Part shown: one piece after another, positions 6,966 to 41,674 of the stretch
Position numbering within the stretch: the first letter of the stretch is position 1
How the letters are laid out: each line of letters starts with the position of its first letter
IMG/VR virus record: IMGVR_UViG_3300017963_000127
Span: 1-41,674 of that record
Direction: 5' to 3' (one strand)
DNA: 41,674 bases
DNA from: a virus
Translations under genes and position numbers: made by a program
Notes under the pieces: generated by a model
What the model was told of the DNA's origin: nothing
The model's database searches: none
The model's input: the letters and a program-made list of their open reading frames with translations, nothing else

Positions 6966-7019
6966 TAAATTAGAAGGGGTTGTCTGCTCCAATACCCTAA
7001 TTTTTAGGGGGCGAGATAG

Positions 7020-7048
7020 TTGCTTTATCTTCAGCATCGTGGTATAAT
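7020..7048 (+). promoter_or_regulatory. Sigma70-type promoter with extended -10, upstream of 7098
   Basis: TTGCTT (7020-7025), a 17-bp spacer and TATAAT (7043-7048) with the extended -10 TGG just before it. This is the strongest promoter seen and defines the pattern found at 7437, 8704, 9371 and 9866. Confidence 0.8.
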
Positions 7049-7063
7049 GAAAGCATAGAAGAG

Positions 7064-7077
7064 GGGCAAAAATGCCC
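7064..7077 (+). promoter_or_regulatory. 5'-leader hairpin, copy A
   Basis: GGGCA and TGCCC pair around an AAAA loop. The hairpin starts 15 nt after the -10 box, so it would stand near the very 5' end of the mRNA, ahead of AGGAG and the ATG at 7098. Confidence 0.6.
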
Positions 7078-7097
7078 TACAGAATAGGAGCAAGAAA

Positions 7098-7355
7098 ATG
7101 GAAAACAAAACATACAGAATCCTAGTTGGGAAAACTCATATGGTATTGTTCTGCGGTCACGAAAGGCTGTACTCCTACAAGTGGTTAACCAAGGTTTCGG
7201 AACACTTGGGAATTCGTGAGTCCCAACACGTAGCAATTGAAGCAGTTTACATCTGGGCTTTCTGGAGCTGTTCTGAGGTCAAGGAGGGTAGCTTGTTTGT
7301 GTACGATCCCAAAGACAGACTGGACCCGGAAGTGGCTGAGCAGTATTTAGGGTAG
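7098..7355 (+). CDS. Small protein of unknown function (85 aa), own transcription unit
   Basis: ATG 7098 follows ATAGGAGCAAGAAA. The protein starts MENKTYRILVGKTHMVLFCG and is rich in aromatic residues (AVYIWAFWSCSEV), with a strand-rich N-terminus. No domain is recognised. It has its own promoter, leader hairpin and downstream terminator (7377-7407), unlike the overlapped genes before it. Such single-gene units in phages often encode early host-takeover or anti-defence factors, but nothing in the protein proves that here. Confidence 0.75.
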   Translation: MENKTYRILVGKTHMVLFCGHERLYSYKWLTKVSEHLGIRESQHVAIEAVYIWAFWSCSEVKEGSLFVYDPKDRLDPEVAEQYLG

Positions 7356-7376: not shown

Positions 7377-7407
7377 AGGGGGATGCAACCGCATCCCCCT
7401 AAATTTT
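7377..7407 (+). terminator. Intrinsic terminator
   Basis: AGGGGGATGC (7377-7386) pairs fully with 7391-7400 around AACC, followed by AAATTTT. It ends the 7098 unit. Confidence 0.85.
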
Positions 7408-7412
7408 AGGGG

Positions 7413-7442
7413 TAGGCAAGATCGCAGAAAACGTGGTATGAT
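7413..7442 (+). promoter_or_regulatory. Promoter with extended -10, upstream of 7489
   Basis: TAGGCA (7413-7418), an 18-bp spacer and TATGAT (7437-7442) preceded by TGG. It directly follows the terminator of the previous unit. Confidence 0.65.
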
Positions 7443-7456
7443 ATAGTTACATTCGA

Positions 7457-7470
7457 GGGCACAAATGCCC
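7457..7470 (+). promoter_or_regulatory. 5'-leader hairpin, copy B
   Basis: GGGCA pairs with TGCCC around CAAA. It begins 14 nt after the -10 box, the same geometry as copy A, and precedes AAGGAG and ATG 7489. Confidence 0.6.
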
Positions 7471-7488
7471 ACACAAAGGAGCAACAAA

Positions 7489-7707
7489 ATGAACAAGGTA
7501 CAAGAAGCCCAAATCCGCAAGATCGTCCAGATGGACAAGCAAGTTAAGTCGGTTCACGACCAAGTCCAGGTAGACTTTGCAGTTCACGATTTTCTGGAAA
7601 ACCTGGATCCTAGCGATCCCCTCTACAGTGAGCTAAGCATGGTACTTCGGCAAGAGCGCATTGAGGGATTGATTGAGTACCTATACAACATGGTAAGCTG
7701 GAGCTAA
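7489..7707 (+). CDS. Small helical protein of unknown function (72 aa)
   Basis: ATG 7489 is chosen over an upstream in-frame start because AAAGGAGCAACAAA lies just before it. The protein MNKVQEAQIRKIVQMDKQ looks wholly alpha-helical, possibly coiled coil in the first third, and ends with EGLIEYLYNMVSWS. No family is recognised. It is a monocistronic unit with its own promoter and terminator. Confidence 0.75.
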   Translation: MNKVQEAQIRKIVQMDKQVKSVHDQVQVDFAVHDFLENLDPSDPLYSELSMVLRQERIEGLIEYLYNMVSWS

Positions 7708-7726: not shown

Positions 7727-7758
7727 AGGGGATAGCCTAGAGCTATCCCCTAATTTTT
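7727..7758 (+). terminator. Intrinsic terminator
   Basis: AGGGGATAGC (7727-7736) pairs with 7742-7751 around CTAGA, followed by AATTTTT. It ends the 7489 unit. Confidence 0.85.
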
Positions 7759-7763
7759 AGGGG

Positions 7764-7792
7764 TAGCGAAGTCAGGATATGTGCGGTATACT
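7764..7792 (+). promoter_or_regulatory. Promoter upstream of 7825, with overlapping palindrome
   Basis: TAGCGA (7764-7769), 17-bp spacer, TATACT (7787-7792) with GCGG before it. The palindrome ACTGTA-TC-TACAGT (7790-7803) overlaps the -10 and probable start site and could be an operator or a short 5' hairpin. Confidence 0.6.
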
Positions 7793-8004: not shown

Positions 8005-8028
8005 CTACCCAACTACCCCTAACCACGC

Positions 8029-8051
8029 GGGAGCCGCTTAAAACGGCTCCC
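8029..8051 (+). promoter_or_regulatory. Leader hairpin upstream of 8076
   Basis: GGGAGCCG pairs with CGGCTCCC around CTTAAAA (8-bp stem). No T-run follows, but AGGAGG and the ATG at 8076 do, so it resembles the leader hairpins of neighbouring units. Confidence 0.5.
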
Positions 8052-8075
8052 ACGAGTCCAGGAGGACATTCTAAA

Positions 8076-9311
8076 ATGAACAGCAAAGCACACGACGCAA
8101 TCTGGCAGGTTTGTCTAGAGATTCAAGAGCGGGGCGAGTACATCGGGTTATGGGGTAGGGGTGAAGCCGAGCTTGGTACGCTACAGGGCGATACCCTAAC
8201 CCTCAGCTTTGACCAGTGGAATACCGACGACGGCGATGTAGCTGTGGGCCAAACCTTCTACGAGTATATAGGTTCGGGGTTGTACAAAGCCTTCGGCATA
8301 GACACCGACATCATGGACGTGGATACCAACTTTGTTGAGCTGAAGCTTACGGTACCGGGCGAGTTTGCTGCCGACGGTACCATTAAACTACAGCCGCCGA
8401 GCTGGATTAAGAATCGGGCGGGTCTGTACCGCACCTGCGATTACAAGGGCCGATGGTGGCAGCTTGAGCAGGTTGGCAAGTGGATGGGCGCATCACGACG
8501 CGAGTGGTGGATGGGCACGACCGATGACCCAGGTGCTGACCAGTATGAAACTATGGCTCAAGCGGTCAAGGCTTTAGCGGGGCACCTCGAAGAGGAGCTT
8601 AACTTGGCTCTGGGGTTGGTACGGTACGAAGGGCTTCGCATAGTGCCGAATGACACTGAGGAAATAGTGTCAAATGACACTGGGGAAACTGAGGGGGAAG
8701 AGGTATCATTCAGTCATGGTTCGGGGGCATCGCCCCTACAAACTAGCCAGGAGGCTAAGAAAATGTCAGACGAGAAGAATACCCAGACCGACGAAGTTGT
8801 TGAAGAAGCAGTGTCCGAGGAAGCTACCCCACAGACCGATCCGTTGACCGACCGCTTGCCCTTGGCAGCGAGTCTCTCCGAAAAGGGTTTCACCCTTGAG
8901 GATGCACGCGCAGTCCGCGCCAACAACCAGCTCACCGACGAGCAGGTTGCATCGGGCGAGTGGGTCAAGCTCGTCGACGTGGATCGCCTCTGCAAAGCCA
9001 ACAACATTCCGATCAGCCGGTTTGTCCGCGCCTTTGGCGGCGACCGCGCGTTGTTGCCCCCAATGCACGAAATGTACACGGTTCGTTGGCATGGTCGCAC
9101 TCGCTACCTGCCCATTGCAGCCGCCTCCGACGAATCCATCGAGTTTCTGAAAGCGATGGCACCTGCCAAACGCGTCCGCAAAGCCAAAGCCGAAAAGCCC
9201 GAAGGCGAGGGCGAAGCGACCGAGACGCCCGAAGCTGAAGCACCTGCCGAAGCTCCGAAGAAACGTCGTCGGCGCAAGGCACAGCCCAAAGCTGACGAAG
9301 CTGCCGAGTAG
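8076..9311 (+). CDS. 411-residue protein of unknown function, containing a nested gene
   Basis: ATG 8076 has AGGAGGACATTCTAAA before it. Residues 1 to about 195 form a folded acidic domain rich in Trp (ASRREWWMGTTDD). Residues about 196-229 are low-complexity acidic (NDTEEIVSNDTGETEGEE). From residue 230 (MSDEKNTQTDEVVEE) a second region begins, with a helical core and a Lys/Ala/Pro/Glu tail. The DNA coding the linker contains a promoter-like site, a GGGGC hairpin and AGGAGG, so it looks like an intergenic leader read through in frame. The ORF may be a fusion of two genes or a gene with a nested shorter product. No family is recognised. Confidence 0.75.
   Translation: MNSKAHDAIWQVCLEIQERGEYIGLWGRGEAELGTLQGDTLTLSFDQWNTDDGDVAVGQTFYEYIGSGLYKAFGIDTDIMDVDTNFVELKLTVPGEFAADGTIKLQPPSWIKNRAGLYRTCDYKGRWWQLEQVGKWMGASRREWWMGTTDDPGADQYETMAQAVKALAGHLEEELNLALGLVRYEGLRIVPNDTEEIVSNDTGETEGEEVSFSHGSGASPLQTSQEAKKMSDEKNTQTDEVVEEAVSEEATPQTDPLTDRLPLAASLSEKGFTLEDARAVRANNQLTDEQVASGEWVKLVDVDRLCKANNIPISRFVRAFGGDRALLPPMHEMYTVRWHGRTRYLPIAAASDESIEFLKAMAPAKRVRKAKAEKPEGEGEATETPEAEAPAEAPKKRRRRKAQPKADEAAE
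8681..8709 (+). promoter_or_regulatory. Candidate internal promoter for the nested gene at 8763
   Basis: GGTATCAT (TATCAT at 8704-8709) resembles the extended -10 used elsewhere; a poor -35 (TGGGGA, 8681-8686) lies 17 bp upstream. Three TGACACT elements in alternating orientation (8651-8657, 8666-8672, 8675-8681) lie just upstream, like an operator. Confidence 0.45.
8724..8736 (+). promoter_or_regulatory. 5'-leader hairpin, copy C, inside a coding frame
   Basis: GGGGC and GCCCC pair around ATC. It begins 14 nt after the candidate -10, as in copies A and B, and is followed by AGGAGG (8749-8754) and ATG 8763. Confidence 0.5.
8763..9311 (+). CDS. Nested in-frame gene: 182-residue protein with histone-like basic tail
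   Basis: This frame is shared with the 8076 gene. AGGAGG at 8749-8754 with 8-nt spacing is as strong as any site in the genome, and the promoter and hairpin upstream repeat the local pattern. The protein starts with an acidic segment (MSDEKNTQTDEVVEEAVSEE), has a helical core with DRLCKANNIPISRFVRAFGG (helix-turn-helix-like in spacing) and ends in a disordered tail rich in Ala, Pro, Glu and Lys with KKRRRRK. The tail recalls DNA-coating or histone H1-like proteins. Function is unknown; a DNA-binding role is an inference from composition. Confidence 0.6.
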   Translation: MSDEKNTQTDEVVEEAVSEEATPQTDPLTDRLPLAASLSEKGFTLEDARAVRANNQLTDEQVASGEWVKLVDVDRLCKANNIPISRFVRAFGGDRALLPPMHEMYTVRWHGRTRYLPIAAASDESIEFLKAMAPAKRVRKAKAEKPEGEGEATETPEAEAPAEAPKKRRRRKAQPKADEAAE

Positions 9312-9335
9312 TTTCTACCCCAGTCCGAGTATCCG

Positions 9336-9366
9336 AATCCCCGCCACTTGCGCGGGGATTTTTATT
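9336..9366 (+). terminator. Intrinsic terminator after the 8076/8763 gene
   Basis: AATCCCCGC (9336-9344) pairs with 9352-9360 around CACTTGC, with a T-run at 9359-9363. The -35 of the next promoter (TTGCGC) lies inside this hairpin. Confidence 0.85.
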
Positions 9367-9376
9367 GTGGTATGCT
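9348..9376 (+). promoter_or_regulatory. Promoter with extended -10, upstream of 9409
   Basis: TTGCGC (9348-9353), 17-bp spacer, TATGCT (9371-9376) preceded by TGG. It overlaps the upstream terminator, so termination and initiation share sequence. A weak GTAT-CGCA-ATAC hairpin follows at 9381-9392. Confidence 0.65.
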
Positions 9377-9408
9377 GAAGGTATCGCAATACAAAATAGG
9401 AGGCTAAA

Positions 9409-9666
9409 ATGCCAAGCAATATCCAACTGTTTCGCGTTCTGACCGTGTTGTATCTGGAAAGCCTGTCAGCCCTGGCAGGTGTAAAGGTGTCGTATGTTTT
9501 AGACAGTATGGACACCCTCATTAATCTGATTGGTGAATTGCCCCCTTCGGAAGACAAGGTGTATCTACAATGGTGCTTGGACAACTTGCTAGAGAATGGA
9601 CTCAATTCGGAGCGCGTGCAACTGCTTCATGACATGCTCGGAGTAGTAGCTGTTCCGAATGCCTAG
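9409..9666 (+). CDS. Small helical protein of unknown function (85 aa)
   Basis: ATG 9409 follows ATAGGAGGCTAAA, a near copy of the site before 8763. The protein is helical and Leu-rich (LTVLYLESLSALAGVKV, DNLLENGLNSERVQLLHDML) and mildly acidic. No family is recognised. It is monocistronic, with its own promoter and a perfect 12-bp terminator. Confidence 0.75.
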   Translation: MPSNIQLFRVLTVLYLESLSALAGVKVSYVLDSMDTLINLIGELPPSEDKVYLQWCLDNLLENGLNSERVQLLHDMLGVVAVPNA

Positions 9667-9858: not shown

Positions 9859-9871
9859 GGAGTGGTATAAT
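9843..9871 (+). promoter_or_regulatory. Promoter of the terminase/structural operon
   Basis: TATAAT (9866-9871) preceded by TGG, a full extended -10. The -35 position (9843-9848) is poor, which fits dependence on the extended -10 or on an activator bound at the inverted repeat. The remaining sequence of 9717-9829 shows nothing I can name. Confidence 0.65.
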
Positions 9872-9895
9872 ATGGGTAGCTTCCGCTCTGTAAAC

Positions 9896-9940
9896 GGAGG
9901 GACTCCATTTGTTGGTCTGCCCTGTTAAGCGAGTCCCTCC
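9896..9940 (+). promoter_or_regulatory. 10-bp leader stem-loop upstream of the small terminase gene
   Basis: GGAGGGACTC (9896-9905) pairs exactly with GAGTCCCTCC (9931-9940) around a 25-nt loop. It ends just before the AAGGAA ribosome site of 9954. The left arm itself contains GGAGG. Confidence 0.6.
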
Positions 9941-9953
9941 AAGGAACTTTTCT

Positions 9954-10652
9954 ATGGAACTAGCAGTACCGCAGCTTTGGGATAGACAACCCTGGGATAC
10001 CGACCTGACTTGGAAGGTGTTCCGTTTGTGGTTGGTCCAAGCGGAACGACCACGCAATATCCACAAAGCCTGGAAGGACCACCTGGGTCGCTCCAAGACC
10101 AAGAGCGGAGCTAACATTTCAGCACCTTCCCACATCATCCAATCCTACCATGCGGCTGACGCGGAATCCAATGCGCATGACAATACGTTTACCTGGGAAG
10201 CTAGGGCTGAGGCTTATGACAGCTACCAAGCTAGTCTAGATGCTGTTAAGTGGGAGCGTCGTAAGAGCCAGCTTCGGGAATGGGAATGGGAAGCTGCATC
10301 AGCCCTGCTGGAGAAATGTTGGGAGATGTTGAGCTGGCCCTTAGCAACTACCGAAGAGCAGGTTTCCAAAGATGGTAGGGAAATCACTTATGTGGTTAAT
10401 CCAGTCAAGTGGAGACTGGCAGACATTCGGGGTTTCCTGGAGTCTGCGTCTAAGCTGGCTAGGCTGGCAACTGAGATGCACCAATCCAAGCACCAGATTG
10501 ACGTAGGATTAGACCTGTCTCCCGAAGCTGTGGAAGCCCTGGGAATGCTACGCAAGAGCGGTATTCCAGACTCTGCGGTTGTGCGGGAATTTGAATCTGT
10601 GATTATTGAGACTGCCAATGGACTCAACCGTTACCCAGACGATCCGGACTAA
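9954..10652 (+). CDS. Terminase small subunit
   Basis: This 232-residue protein would recognise phage DNA and hand it to the large terminase. ATG 9954 is chosen for CAAGGAAC upstream; a TTG start at 9909 is less likely. The first 60 residues (LWDRQPWDTDLTWKVFRLWL, ERPRNIHKAWKDHLG) match the usual opening of small terminases: a short Trp motif, then a helix-turn-helix. The middle is a long helix (YDSYQASLDAVKWERRKSQ) fit for ring formation. Position directly before the large subunit supports the call. Confidence 0.82.
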   Translation: MELAVPQLWDRQPWDTDLTWKVFRLWLVQAERPRNIHKAWKDHLGRSKTKSGANISAPSHIIQSYHAADAESNAHDNTFTWEARAEAYDSYQASLDAVKWERRKSQLREWEWEAASALLEKCWEMLSWPLATTEEQVSKDGREITYVVNPVKWRLADIRGFLESASKLARLATEMHQSKHQIDVGLDLSPEAVEALGMLRKSGIPDSAVVREFESVIIETANGLNRYPDDPD

Positions 10653-31415: not shown

Positions 31416-31444
31416 TTGCAGCTAGAATAGGCGCAGGGTATAAT
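31416..31444 (+). promoter_or_regulatory. Promoter of the SNF2/recombination operon
   Basis: TTGCAG (31416-31421), 17-bp spacer and TATAAT (31439-31444) with GGG before it. It is the only promoter-like site ahead of this gene block. Confidence 0.7.
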
Positions 31445-31464
31445 TAGGGTACTGTTAAATATGT

Positions 31465-31480
31465 GGGACAAAAATGCCCC
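31465..31480 (+). promoter_or_regulatory. 5'-leader hairpin, copy D
   Basis: GGG-A-CA pairs with TG-C-CCC around AAAA with one mismatch. It starts 20 nt past the -10 box and precedes AGAGGTAGCAAC and ATG 31497. Confidence 0.5.
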
Positions 31481-31496
31481 CTAAAGAGGTAGCAAC

Positions 31497-33416
31497 ATGG
31501 ACTACGAAAATCCAGAACAGGTACTCAAAGCTCTTCTCTTTCTTCACGGTTTTCAAACCCTAGACGAACAAGCCAGCTATGCGACCAGGGAATCCAACTC
31601 AGTTGGATTCAACATGGTAGATGCTGGCTTTTGCACTTCCATCGTAGAGTGGGTCTTGAATGGTGGACCGTTTACTGATGGGCAGTTTCGTTCTGTTTCC
31701 AAGGTGATACGCAAGTATCACGGACAGATAACTAACCTGGGATTTGACCCTGCTAATATTCAACTTCCCGATACTTGGAAACCTGCAGAGCGCGGTCCGA
31801 ATGCCAGACGAAAGTTAACTGGCGATGGGTTGCTACACCTTGAAAATGGACGCCTCATTTTTGTACCTAATGTTTATCCCTCTAAGGCTGCGAAACAACT
31901 GGGATTCTCCTGGCGCTCCAAGCGATGGGAGGGACCACCTCTTAGTCTAGTTGTTTTCAATCAGTTCGTGCGCCAGTTTCCCAAGGTGGTTGTTGACTCT
32001 GAGGTTCAGCGAGCGGTTGAGCTGGCTTTGGAAGCTACCGAGCTTCCGGAACACATAGAAGCCAGTGAAACATATTTCCCCTACCAGAAAGACGGAATCC
32101 AGTTTCTGCTAACCCATCCTAGAGCTTTGCTGGCTTTCAGCCCTGGTCTTGGAAAGACTTTGTGCGCCAGTGTCGCAGCCAGTTACATGACGGATAAACG
32201 GGACCTGACCGTGTTGGTGGTTTGTCCGAAATCCCTGTTGTACACTTGGCAAAATGAAGTCCAGAAATGGGTTGGAGAAACCCCTACTATCTGGCATGGG
32301 AATTCCACTACCTGGGAAGAGTATGACACCTGGGTAGTTACCAATTACGACACTATGCGAATCAATGTTGACGAGCTTGTGGCAGAGCAGTTTGATCTAG
32401 TGATTTTTGACGAGTCTGTGCTGCTAAAGAATCGCAAGGCAAAACGTGTTGCGGCTGCGCGACAGCTTGCAAAATCTGCTGAGATCGTTTGGCTTCTAAG
32501 CGGAGCACCTACTACACGTTTCTACGACGATCTGTGGGCACAACTTAATCTGCTTAGTACCCAACAATTTCGGTCCTACTGGCGGTTCGCTAGACACTAC
32601 TGTATGCTGGAAACGACCGAGTGGGGTACCAGCATTATCGCCAATCAACCAGATGCTGCTGGCAGGTTGCAGGAAGACCTAGCTGAGATAATGATTGCAC
32701 GTACTCAGGACCAAGTTTTGAGCCTTCCGAATTGGATTATAGAAGATGTAGAACTGCCTATGGGCAAGAAGCAAGAAAAGGCTTACCTGGAAATGGAAGA
32801 ATTCTTCTTTGCCAACTTGCCTGAAGCTGACGACGTAGTGCTGGCTCCTAACGTGTTAGCTCAGCTACTGCGATTGATCCAATTCGCAAGCAATCCTGTG
32901 CTATTAGGTGGCGCTGACCAGTCTCCAAAGTGGGATGCGGTTGCGGAAATGCTTACCTTCTATCCTCTGCCTGCGATCCTGTGGGTAAACTTTATCGCTA
33001 CTGGGGAGCACCTGTTGGAGCGTCTTAGCACCAGCTACAAAGTAGAAATGCTAACTGGCTCAACCCCAGTTAAGAAGCGACAAGAAATTGTTGACAGGTT
33101 TCAAGCTGGTGAGCTAGATGTAGTAATTGCGCATCCGGCTGTAGGTAAGTTCGGTCTGACTCTAACCAAGGGCCGAACCGCTGTATACGTAGAGCGGTCT
33201 TTCAATGGCGATGACTACTTTCAAAGCCTACATCGTATTCGCAGGATTGGTACTACGGAATCGCCCCATGTTATACACCTGCTGAGTCGTAGGAAAAACG
33301 GGGACCAGACTGTAGACCACGCAATAAATCGCGTGTTAAGCTATAGACGAGATTCTGCACTTAAGCTGACAACAGGTGTTATCAGAGAGGCATGGGGGAG
33401 AAATGGACACGTTTAA
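31497..33416 (+). CDS. SNF2-family DNA translocase/helicase with HARP-like N-terminus
   Basis: This 639-residue ATPase has motif I AFSPGLGKT (213-221), motif II DLVIFDESV (DESV instead of DEAH/DEAQ, 305-308), motif III LSGAPT (334-339) and motif VI QSLHRIRRIG (576-585), so it is an SF2 enzyme of SNF2 type. Residues about 110-150 (GLLHLENGRLIFVP, KQLGFSWRSKRWEGP) look like the HARP-type region of DNA-annealing SNF2 proteins. It probably remodels forks or recombination intermediates. It heads a replication/recombination operon. Confidence 0.88.
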   Translation: MDYENPEQVLKALLFLHGFQTLDEQASYATRESNSVGFNMVDAGFCTSIVEWVLNGGPFTDGQFRSVSKVIRKYHGQITNLGFDPANIQLPDTWKPAERGPNARRKLTGDGLLHLENGRLIFVPNVYPSKAAKQLGFSWRSKRWEGPPLSLVVFNQFVRQFPKVVVDSEVQRAVELALEATELPEHIEASETYFPYQKDGIQFLLTHPRALLAFSPGLGKTLCASVAASYMTDKRDLTVLVVCPKSLLYTWQNEVQKWVGETPTIWHGNSTTWEEYDTWVVTNYDTMRINVDELVAEQFDLVIFDESVLLKNRKAKRVAAARQLAKSAEIVWLLSGAPTTRFYDDLWAQLNLLSTQQFRSYWRFARHYCMLETTEWGTSIIANQPDAAGRLQEDLAEIMIARTQDQVLSLPNWIIEDVELPMGKKQEKAYLEMEEFFFANLPEADDVVLAPNVLAQLLRLIQFASNPVLLGGADQSPKWDAVAEMLTFYPLPAILWVNFIATGEHLLERLSTSYKVEMLTGSTPVKKRQEIVDRFQAGELDVVIAHPAVGKFGLTLTKGRTAVYVERSFNGDDYFQSLHRIRRIGTTESPHVIHLLSRRKNGDQTVDHAINRVLSYRRDSALKLTTGVIREAWGRNGHV

Positions 33417-33717
33417 CGCGGTCTGGATTACACAACCTTTACACGATTTCAGCTCGCTGAGGTTTCATACGCAGAGCTTGAAGTTCTTGTCAGATGGGCA
33501 AGAAACCCTGGACGACTTACCCAGGCAGTTCGTAGACCGATTGGCAGAGTTTAATCCTGAGACAGATGCGATCGTTTGTGTTGGCAGGTCAACCGCGAAT
33601 GCCCTGGTCGGGGCTGCTCTAGCCAAGTTGTTTCCAGGTACCGTAGTCACGTTCGGCGTGTTCCGGTCCTGGGAACCAGACCAGAGAAAATACGTATGGA
33701 TGGAGGTGCTCGTATGA
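33403..33717 (+). CDS. Protein of unknown function (104 aa)
   Basis: The start is ATG 33403 (GGGGGAGAAATGG), overlapping the SNF2 end by 14 nt. It is an alpha/beta protein with a strand-helix pair ETDAIVCVGRSTANALVGAA that resembles a small Rossmann-like or nucleotide-binding turn. No family is assigned. It overlaps the nuclease start by ATGA. Confidence 0.68.
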   Translation: MDTFNAVWITQPLHDFSSLRFHTQSLKFLSDGQETLDDLPRQFVDRLAEFNPETDAIVCVGRSTANALVGAALAKLFPGTVVTFGVFRSWEPDQRKYVWMEVLV

Positions 33718-40450: not shown

Positions 40451-41674
40451 ATGCTCGGCAGCACGACTTTAGGGGTAAGGGTAGGTTCCTTACCCCAAGA
40501 GCCTTCTGTGGCGCTCCCTACGGGTCTACGGGAGGATTGGCGGCTGACCCTGGCAGATGTAGCCAGATGCTCAGGATATCCACTAGCAATTGATGTGGAA
40601 ACGAACGGAGTCAATTGGTGGCAACCTGTTATCCATACTATAGGTGTCGGTATATACTGCCCGAAGGCAGATGTGGCAGGTTACTTCCCAACTTGGGAAC
40701 CGGGCGAGTTGGAAGCTATAGTTCAGGTTATGCTGGACACCTGGGACGAAAACACCTGGGTGATTGCGCACAATCTGAAATTTGAATGGCATTTCCTAGG
40801 GTTGGATCCTCGGACCTTGCCCTGGCAGTTTCTTGACACTATGCTGATGGCTCATCTGGTAGACAGCCGAGCTCGCAAAGGGTTGGCAGAATGCGAGCGA
40901 ATGTATCTTGGCGACGCAACCAAGAAGCAACACGTAGCAGCAGCTCCGAAGAAGACCAAGATATGGAACTGGCCTGAGCCGATACGTGCTCGGTACTGTA
41001 TCAATGACTGCATTGTAACCTACGACCTAGCTGGTATATTGCGCGAGCGAATACTGGAAATGGATCAATGGTCTATTGTAGGTAGCGATATAGAGTACTT
41101 GGAGATACTCTGGCACACAGAGCGTCGTGGGCACAAGATTGATGTTCCATTCCTGGAAGACGCTTTGATCAAACTTCAAGAACACTTGGATTTGTTAGTG
41201 GAAGAGCTACACGACAGCGTCGGATACGAGTTCAACTGGCGGTCCCACAAACAACTTTCGCAGGCTTTGTATGAGGGTATGGGCATTGAGCGGTTGGAGA
41301 ATCCGTTTGATGACGACAAAAGTAGGGTAGGTTTCCAGAAGCTGTACAACGCAACCCAAACCTCTACATTTATCCTAATGGAAAAGCGGAAGCATCCGTT
41401 GGGCGAGCTGATTTCGTTCATGCGTGAAACGGATAAGTTGCGCCAGACTGTTAAGAAGTGGTTGGCTCTCCGGGACCAGGATGACATAATTCATCCTACG
41501 TTCAAGCCTTGGGGAACTCGCACCTACCGCTTGAGCTGTAGCAATCCGAATATGCAAAACATTGCTTCTGAATTCCGAACACGTTTTACTCAGTCGGTTT
41601 ATTCAGGTAGCAAAAGTCGGGAGGAGGAATACAACCTGCGAAACGGGTTTATTGCCCGACCCGGTATGATCCTA
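40451..41674 (+). CDS. DNA polymerase, family A, N-terminal part (3'-5' exonuclease); gene continues at position 1
   Basis: This is the first 408 codons of a gene that runs off the end of the window. Codon 368 (41552) equals position 1, so joining the ends gives a 639-residue polymerase I-like replicase. The N-terminal DnaQ-type proofreading domain is visible: LAIDVETNG (D48, E50), HNLKFEW (N108, E112 where Asp is more usual), FLDTMLMAHL and RYCINDC (Y182, D186). The template-grip motif TYRLSCSNPNMQNI lies at the junction. There is no 5'-nuclease domain, as is common in phage polymerases. ATG 40451 follows the upstream stop by one base and a purine-rich stretch (AGGAAGAG) precedes it. Codons 8-16 contain a 9-bp hairpin (40472-40496) that might affect translation. 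Family assignment is firm. Confidence 0.95.
   Translation, partial: MLGSTTLGVRVGSLPQEPSVALPTGLREDWRLTLADVARCSGYPLAIDVETNGVNWWQPVIHTIGVGIYCPKADVAGYFPTWEPGELEAIVQVMLDTWDENTWVIAHNLKFEWHFLGLDPRTLPWQFLDTMLMAHLVDSRARKGLAECERMYLGDATKKQHVAAAPKKTKIWNWPEPIRARYCINDCIVTYDLAGILRERILEMDQWSIVGSDIEYLEILWHTERRGHKIDVPFLEDALIKLQEHLDLLVEELHDSVGYEFNWRSHKQLSQALYEGMGIERLENPFDDDKSRVGFQKLYNATQTSTFILMEKRKHPLGELISFMRETDKLRQTVKKWLALRDQDDIIHPTFKPWGTRTYRLSCSNPNMQNIASEFRTRFTQSVYSGSKSREEEYNLRNGFIARPGMIL
40472..40496 (+). promoter_or_regulatory. Hairpin inside the first codons of the polymerase gene
   Basis: GGGGTAAGG (40472-40480) pairs with CCTTACCCC (40488-40496) around a 7-nt loop, 21 nt after the ATG. The arms match the GGGGTAAG tracts in the 6857-6965 and 31236-31410 gaps. 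Confidence 0.45.
41552..41674. repeat. Terminal direct repeat, copy 2
   Basis: This 123-bp stretch is an exact match of bases 1-123. Merging the two copies gives a 41551-bp circle and restores a 639-codon polymerase gene. Confidence 0.95.

Follow-up and report, generated by a model that had tools for sequence, protein, structure and literature searches.

A leader-like sequence within a long open reading frame of an unclassified phage and a candidate in-frame nested gene

The locus and its neighbouring leaders

The window analysed is the whole of virus record IMGVR_UViG_3300017963_000127 (41,674 bases), which comes from an unclassified dsDNA phage. An identical 123-base repeat occupies positions 1–123 and 41552–41674, so that the genome of the phage is probably complete in this record, with the DNA polymerase gene probably spanning the record ends. 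Genes for a primase, a helicase, an exonuclease, a thymidylate synthase, a terminase, a portal and a head protease/capsid protein are also present. The exonuclease ORF is listed from a TTG at 33576; an in-frame ATG at 33714 has a strong SD sequence and may be the true start.

The ORF under study (8076–9311, + strand) lies amid small genes directly upstream of the terminase region. It encodes 411 amino acids in an uninterrupted frame, with no in-frame stop over 8076–9308, and AGGAGG at 8060–8065 precedes its start. Directly before this SD sequence is a hairpin (GGGAGCCG...CGGCTCCC, 8028–8051) that has neither a T run nor a promoter-like box nearby, so that the order of hairpin and then SD recurs at the 8076 start. 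The ORF can be divided into half A (8076–8705, + strand), where the in-frame coding signal is unbroken to approximately 8705, and a candidate nested gene B (8763–9311, + strand) of 182 amino acids, for which MSDEK is a plausible N-terminus. The B sequence comprises an acidic N-tail, a small helical core predicted from a poor model, and a low-complexity, charged C-tail rich in K, R, A and E. A terminator-like hairpin with a T run (9335–9361, + strand) lies 3' of B. Third-position GC is 0.65 in A and 0.66 in B, against at most 0.59 in the other large genes, and this unusually high value in both halves suggests that they belong together. Despite the similar third-position GC, B is richer in C than A.

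The full protein, A and B were each used as queries in three viral-contig scans and one bacterial-genome scan, in tblastn searches against phage and plasmid records, and against the entire length of 33 terminase-related viral records; no relative of any of the three was found in these collections. The terminase itself matched 46 viral loci, at up to 62% identity, and gave only two remote matches in bacterial genomes. None of the tested genes upstream of the terminase is common to the terminase-matching viral loci, and scans with the portal, capsid and polymerase brought up no closer kin. Comparison with Pfam, PHROGs, NCBIfam and PADLOC gave no match worth naming for A or B. Fold searches of the PDB returned no matches with AlphaFold models that were alignment-free and poor (pLDDT 41 and 52). 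A role for B as terminase small subunit or scaffold was considered and dropped for want of support.

The genes starting at 7098, 7489, 7825, 9409 and 31497 are preceded by leaders of a common type, which consist of a GGTATNNT box, an SD sequence and the ATG; several of the five also carry a hairpin of the GGGCA-N4-TGCCC type, and terminator-like hairpins separate several of the small units. On the + strand near the ORF, the leaders at 7041–7100 and 7435–7491 each contain promoter, hairpin, SD and start codon (ATG 7098 and ATG 7489, respectively), and that at 9369–9411 contains promoter, SD AGGAGGCTAAA and ATG 9409. The mechanical ORF list places the start of the second of these neighbours at 7465; however, this ATG lies inside the hairpin and the SD sequence is found at 7489, which is therefore taken as the real start. 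The leader of the helicase gene (31437–31499; GGTATAAT, GGGACAAAAATGCCCC and an SD sequence) is built alike and is far from the others, which suggests that this type of leader is not merely a local duplication.

Two further features were observed among the small units. A 25-nt repeat (CCCCTAA..TTTAGGGGTAG..) at 7396–7420 and 7747–7771, and also at 6994–7018, links a terminator tail with the -35 region of the next small transcription unit. Further downstream, at 9864–9970, a promoter-like GTGGTATAAT precedes two stretches, GGAGGGACTCC and GAGTCCCTCC, which might pair with each other, and this segment is perhaps a regulatory leader of the gene before the terminase.

A leader-like stretch inside the reading frame

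An earlier note on this DNA had described, within the ORF, a promoter-like box, a GGGGC hairpin, AGGAGG and an in-frame ATG, and had read them as an autonomous gene with the leader layout of its neighbours. The elements are indeed present, in frame and on the + strand: a -10-like GGTATCAT at 8702–8709 (TATCAT at 8704–8709), with neither a -35 element nor a TG extension; the hairpin GGGGC-ATC-GCCCC at 8724–8736, 14 nt downstream of the -10-like box; a second hairpin, TAGCC-AGGA-GGCTA, at 8744–8757; and, contained in the latter, the SD sequence AGGAGG at 8749–8754, 8 nt upstream of ATG 8763. The distances between -10 box and hairpin were also given correctly, being 15 nt for 7041 and 14 nt for both 7435 and 8702. 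ATG 8763 is in the same frame as 8076, has its own ribosome-binding site and ranks among the strongest start sites of the phage. RNA folding predicts both the GGGGC hairpin and the hairpin holding the SD sequence; the whole stretch folds little better than shuffled sequence (z -1.5).

The likeness to genuine leaders was scored by local alignment of the 69 nt ending at each ATG to the five genuine leaders. The layout had been recognised before the tests were designed, so that the resulting figures are somewhat optimistic and the true significance is lower: the score at 8763 is 133, as compared with 75.5 ± 9.0 (maximum 112) for the 516 other in-gene ATGs, none of which reaches it, nor does any of 2000 synonymously recoded versions of the ORF (mean 87.8). 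This corresponds to z of approximately 6.4 for 8763; when each genuine leader is compared with the remaining four, z ranges from 4.3 to 11.2. Within genes there is a single case of the full layout of -10 box, hairpin, SD and ATG, and 200 synonymous shuffles of the whole proteome yielded none. The likeness is thus statistically real, standing in two kinds of control, beyond chance and beyond the constraint of the protein sequence. An AGGAGG ahead of an internal ATG is by itself unremarkable, with 0.7 expected per genome. Moreover, the peptide QEA readily yields AGGAGG, which is kept in 42% of synonymous recodings, and this counts against a nested pair.

The promoter half of the stretch was examined with a matrix built from the five genuine sites, which were themselves scored leave-one-out. 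Site 8704 scores 2.9 and ranks 220 on the + strand, and every genuine site scores higher (4.1–12.2). Its -35 position reads TGGGGA, as against the TTGC-type hexamers of three genuine sites. The lack of a -35 hexamer and of a TG, together with a matrix score under those of all genuine sites, leads us to regard the promoter claim as weak. The proposed repeat of the neighbours' leader accordingly stands for its translation-start half, which equals the best of the phage, and falls short for its promoter half. Likewise, translation probably also starts internally at 8763, given that the resemblance of the stretch to a leader is statistically real and that its start half matches the phage's best, whereas a transcription unit belonging to B alone draws little from the promoter data. 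A DNA pattern scan combining promoter and hairpin matched two contigs, both with the same unrelated AT-rich sequence, and was discarded.

Nested genes, joined genes or a single protein

Codon scores in the frame of the ORF are normal between 8076 and approximately 8705, fall to zero over 8706–8765, and then recover through B; among genuine windows, the 19 codons of 8706–8762 rank at the 3.8th percentile. This dip fits a leader that has turned coding and equally fits two genes joined by an indel. As judged from the sequence, there is about an even chance that the ORF is an in-frame nested pair, encoding both A-B and B, in which the linker 8706–8762 is a former and still functional leader. Ribosomes starting at 8076 would then make the two-domain A-B protein of 411 amino acids, with a long and probably disordered linker, and initiation at the internal SD and ATG 8763 would give B alone, of 182 amino acids. 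It is most likely that A-B and B are both made. A separate promoter at 8704 would be possible and is not required. Ribosomes translating A would melt the SD hairpin, so that initiation of B may be coupled to translation of A. A fusion history of the two halves is plausible: the frame of A would have run into the leader of a gene, with the leader (8706–8762) becoming translated as linker and its signal being kept.

The dip in coding signal is shared by the foremost alternative, which we consider unlikely, that A and B are ordinary genes, separate from each other, which look fused in this contig owing to an indel from sequencing or assembly or to a very recent stop loss. B shows the leader layout of the independent genes nearby and is followed by a terminator-like site of its own; the two remaining frames have stops close by (8665 in one; 8690, 8744 and 8756 in the other), and one indel would part A from B; and the arrangement is known from one metagenomic contig only. 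However, the in-frame coding signal runs free of stops to approximately 8705, beyond the nearest +1 stops, the linker holds a frame-keeping 24-nt tandem duplication (8640–8687, + strand; 88%), and no terminator-like site was found between A and B, upstream of the B leader. The linker also contains an inverted repeat, AGTGTC-AAAT-GACACT (8666–8681, + strand), which is the sole TGTCA...TGACA palindrome (spacing 0–6) in the 41,674-nt record and is possibly a hairpin or an operator; it has no T run and was dropped as a terminator of A.

The uninterrupted frame would also suit one protein whose two domains are connected by a disordered linker, in which case ATG 8763 is unused and the resemblance to a leader is accidental. 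The weak promoter match is in keeping with this, as are the composition of the linker, which is ordinary for disordered spacers, and the low pLDDT of residues 181–267 in a model that is poor overall. The leader score, which exceeds those of all 516 internal ATGs and of all 2000 protein-keeping recodings, makes this explanation improbable.

More doubtful still is a fully autonomous internal unit, with an active promoter at 8704 and a 5' stem-loop leader driving B and with A-B made from upstream transcripts: TATCAT has five of the six positions of the -10 consensus and is preceded by GG as in the neighbours, the 14 nt to the hairpin agree with theirs, genuine sites 31437 and 7785 likewise have no TG, and the promoter-plus-hairpin part (SD and start left out; score 81) outscores 1999 of the 2000 recodings and is reached by one, but 12 of the 516 ATGs also reach it, and TGGGGA at -35, the missing TG, and a score of 2.9 at rank 220, under the lowest genuine 4.1, speak against an active promoter. 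B has one feature of a monocistronic (moron-like) cassette, the terminator-like hairpin with its T run (9335–9361); separation from A by a stop or terminator is absent, and the promoter amounts to the -10-like box.

That the full intergenic leader, comprising promoter, 5' stem-loop and hairpin-gated ribosome site, stays functional while being translated as a fusion linker is improbable. One DNA segment would in that case act simultaneously as a promoter, as a regulatory RNA and as a spacer in the protein. If the nested pair itself is true, the locus would be a snapshot of gene fusion, with an intergenic spacer turned into protein and the signal of the second gene kept. Gene callers would report one long ORF here, which can hide a second product.

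Comparison with known nested genes

The mechanism is not new, since in-frame internal starts are already established for phage genes. In phage lambda, gpC and gpNu3, the head protease and scaffold, are encoded by in-frame nested genes, and the short product corresponds to the C-terminal portion of the long product. Unlike that pair, A-B/B lies ahead of the terminase and has no match among head families.

In mycobacteriophage Ms6, the gene for lysA241 is embedded in frame within lysA (Lysin384) behind a consensus ribosome site that gives rise to a second product; both products, demonstrated by means of mutants and tags, are endolysins (PMC3111421). The internal in-frame start of A-B/B, with its ribosome site, is of the same kind, and is known here from sequence. 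Unlike in Ms6, it carries a whole leader, with promoter-like box and hairpins, as in separate genes. Plasmid pIGRK, according to the abstract of its report, produces full-length RepR and N-truncated RepR' from one frame by means of an internal start codon; both forms have been demonstrated and they act antagonistically (PMC6854812). A-B/B, as a prediction, resembles this pair in having an internal start in one frame, and the pIGRK abstract, unlike the present locus, describes no embedded leader cassette (PMC6854812). A-B/B is thus probably a further example of an arrangement that has precedents in a few phages and plasmids.
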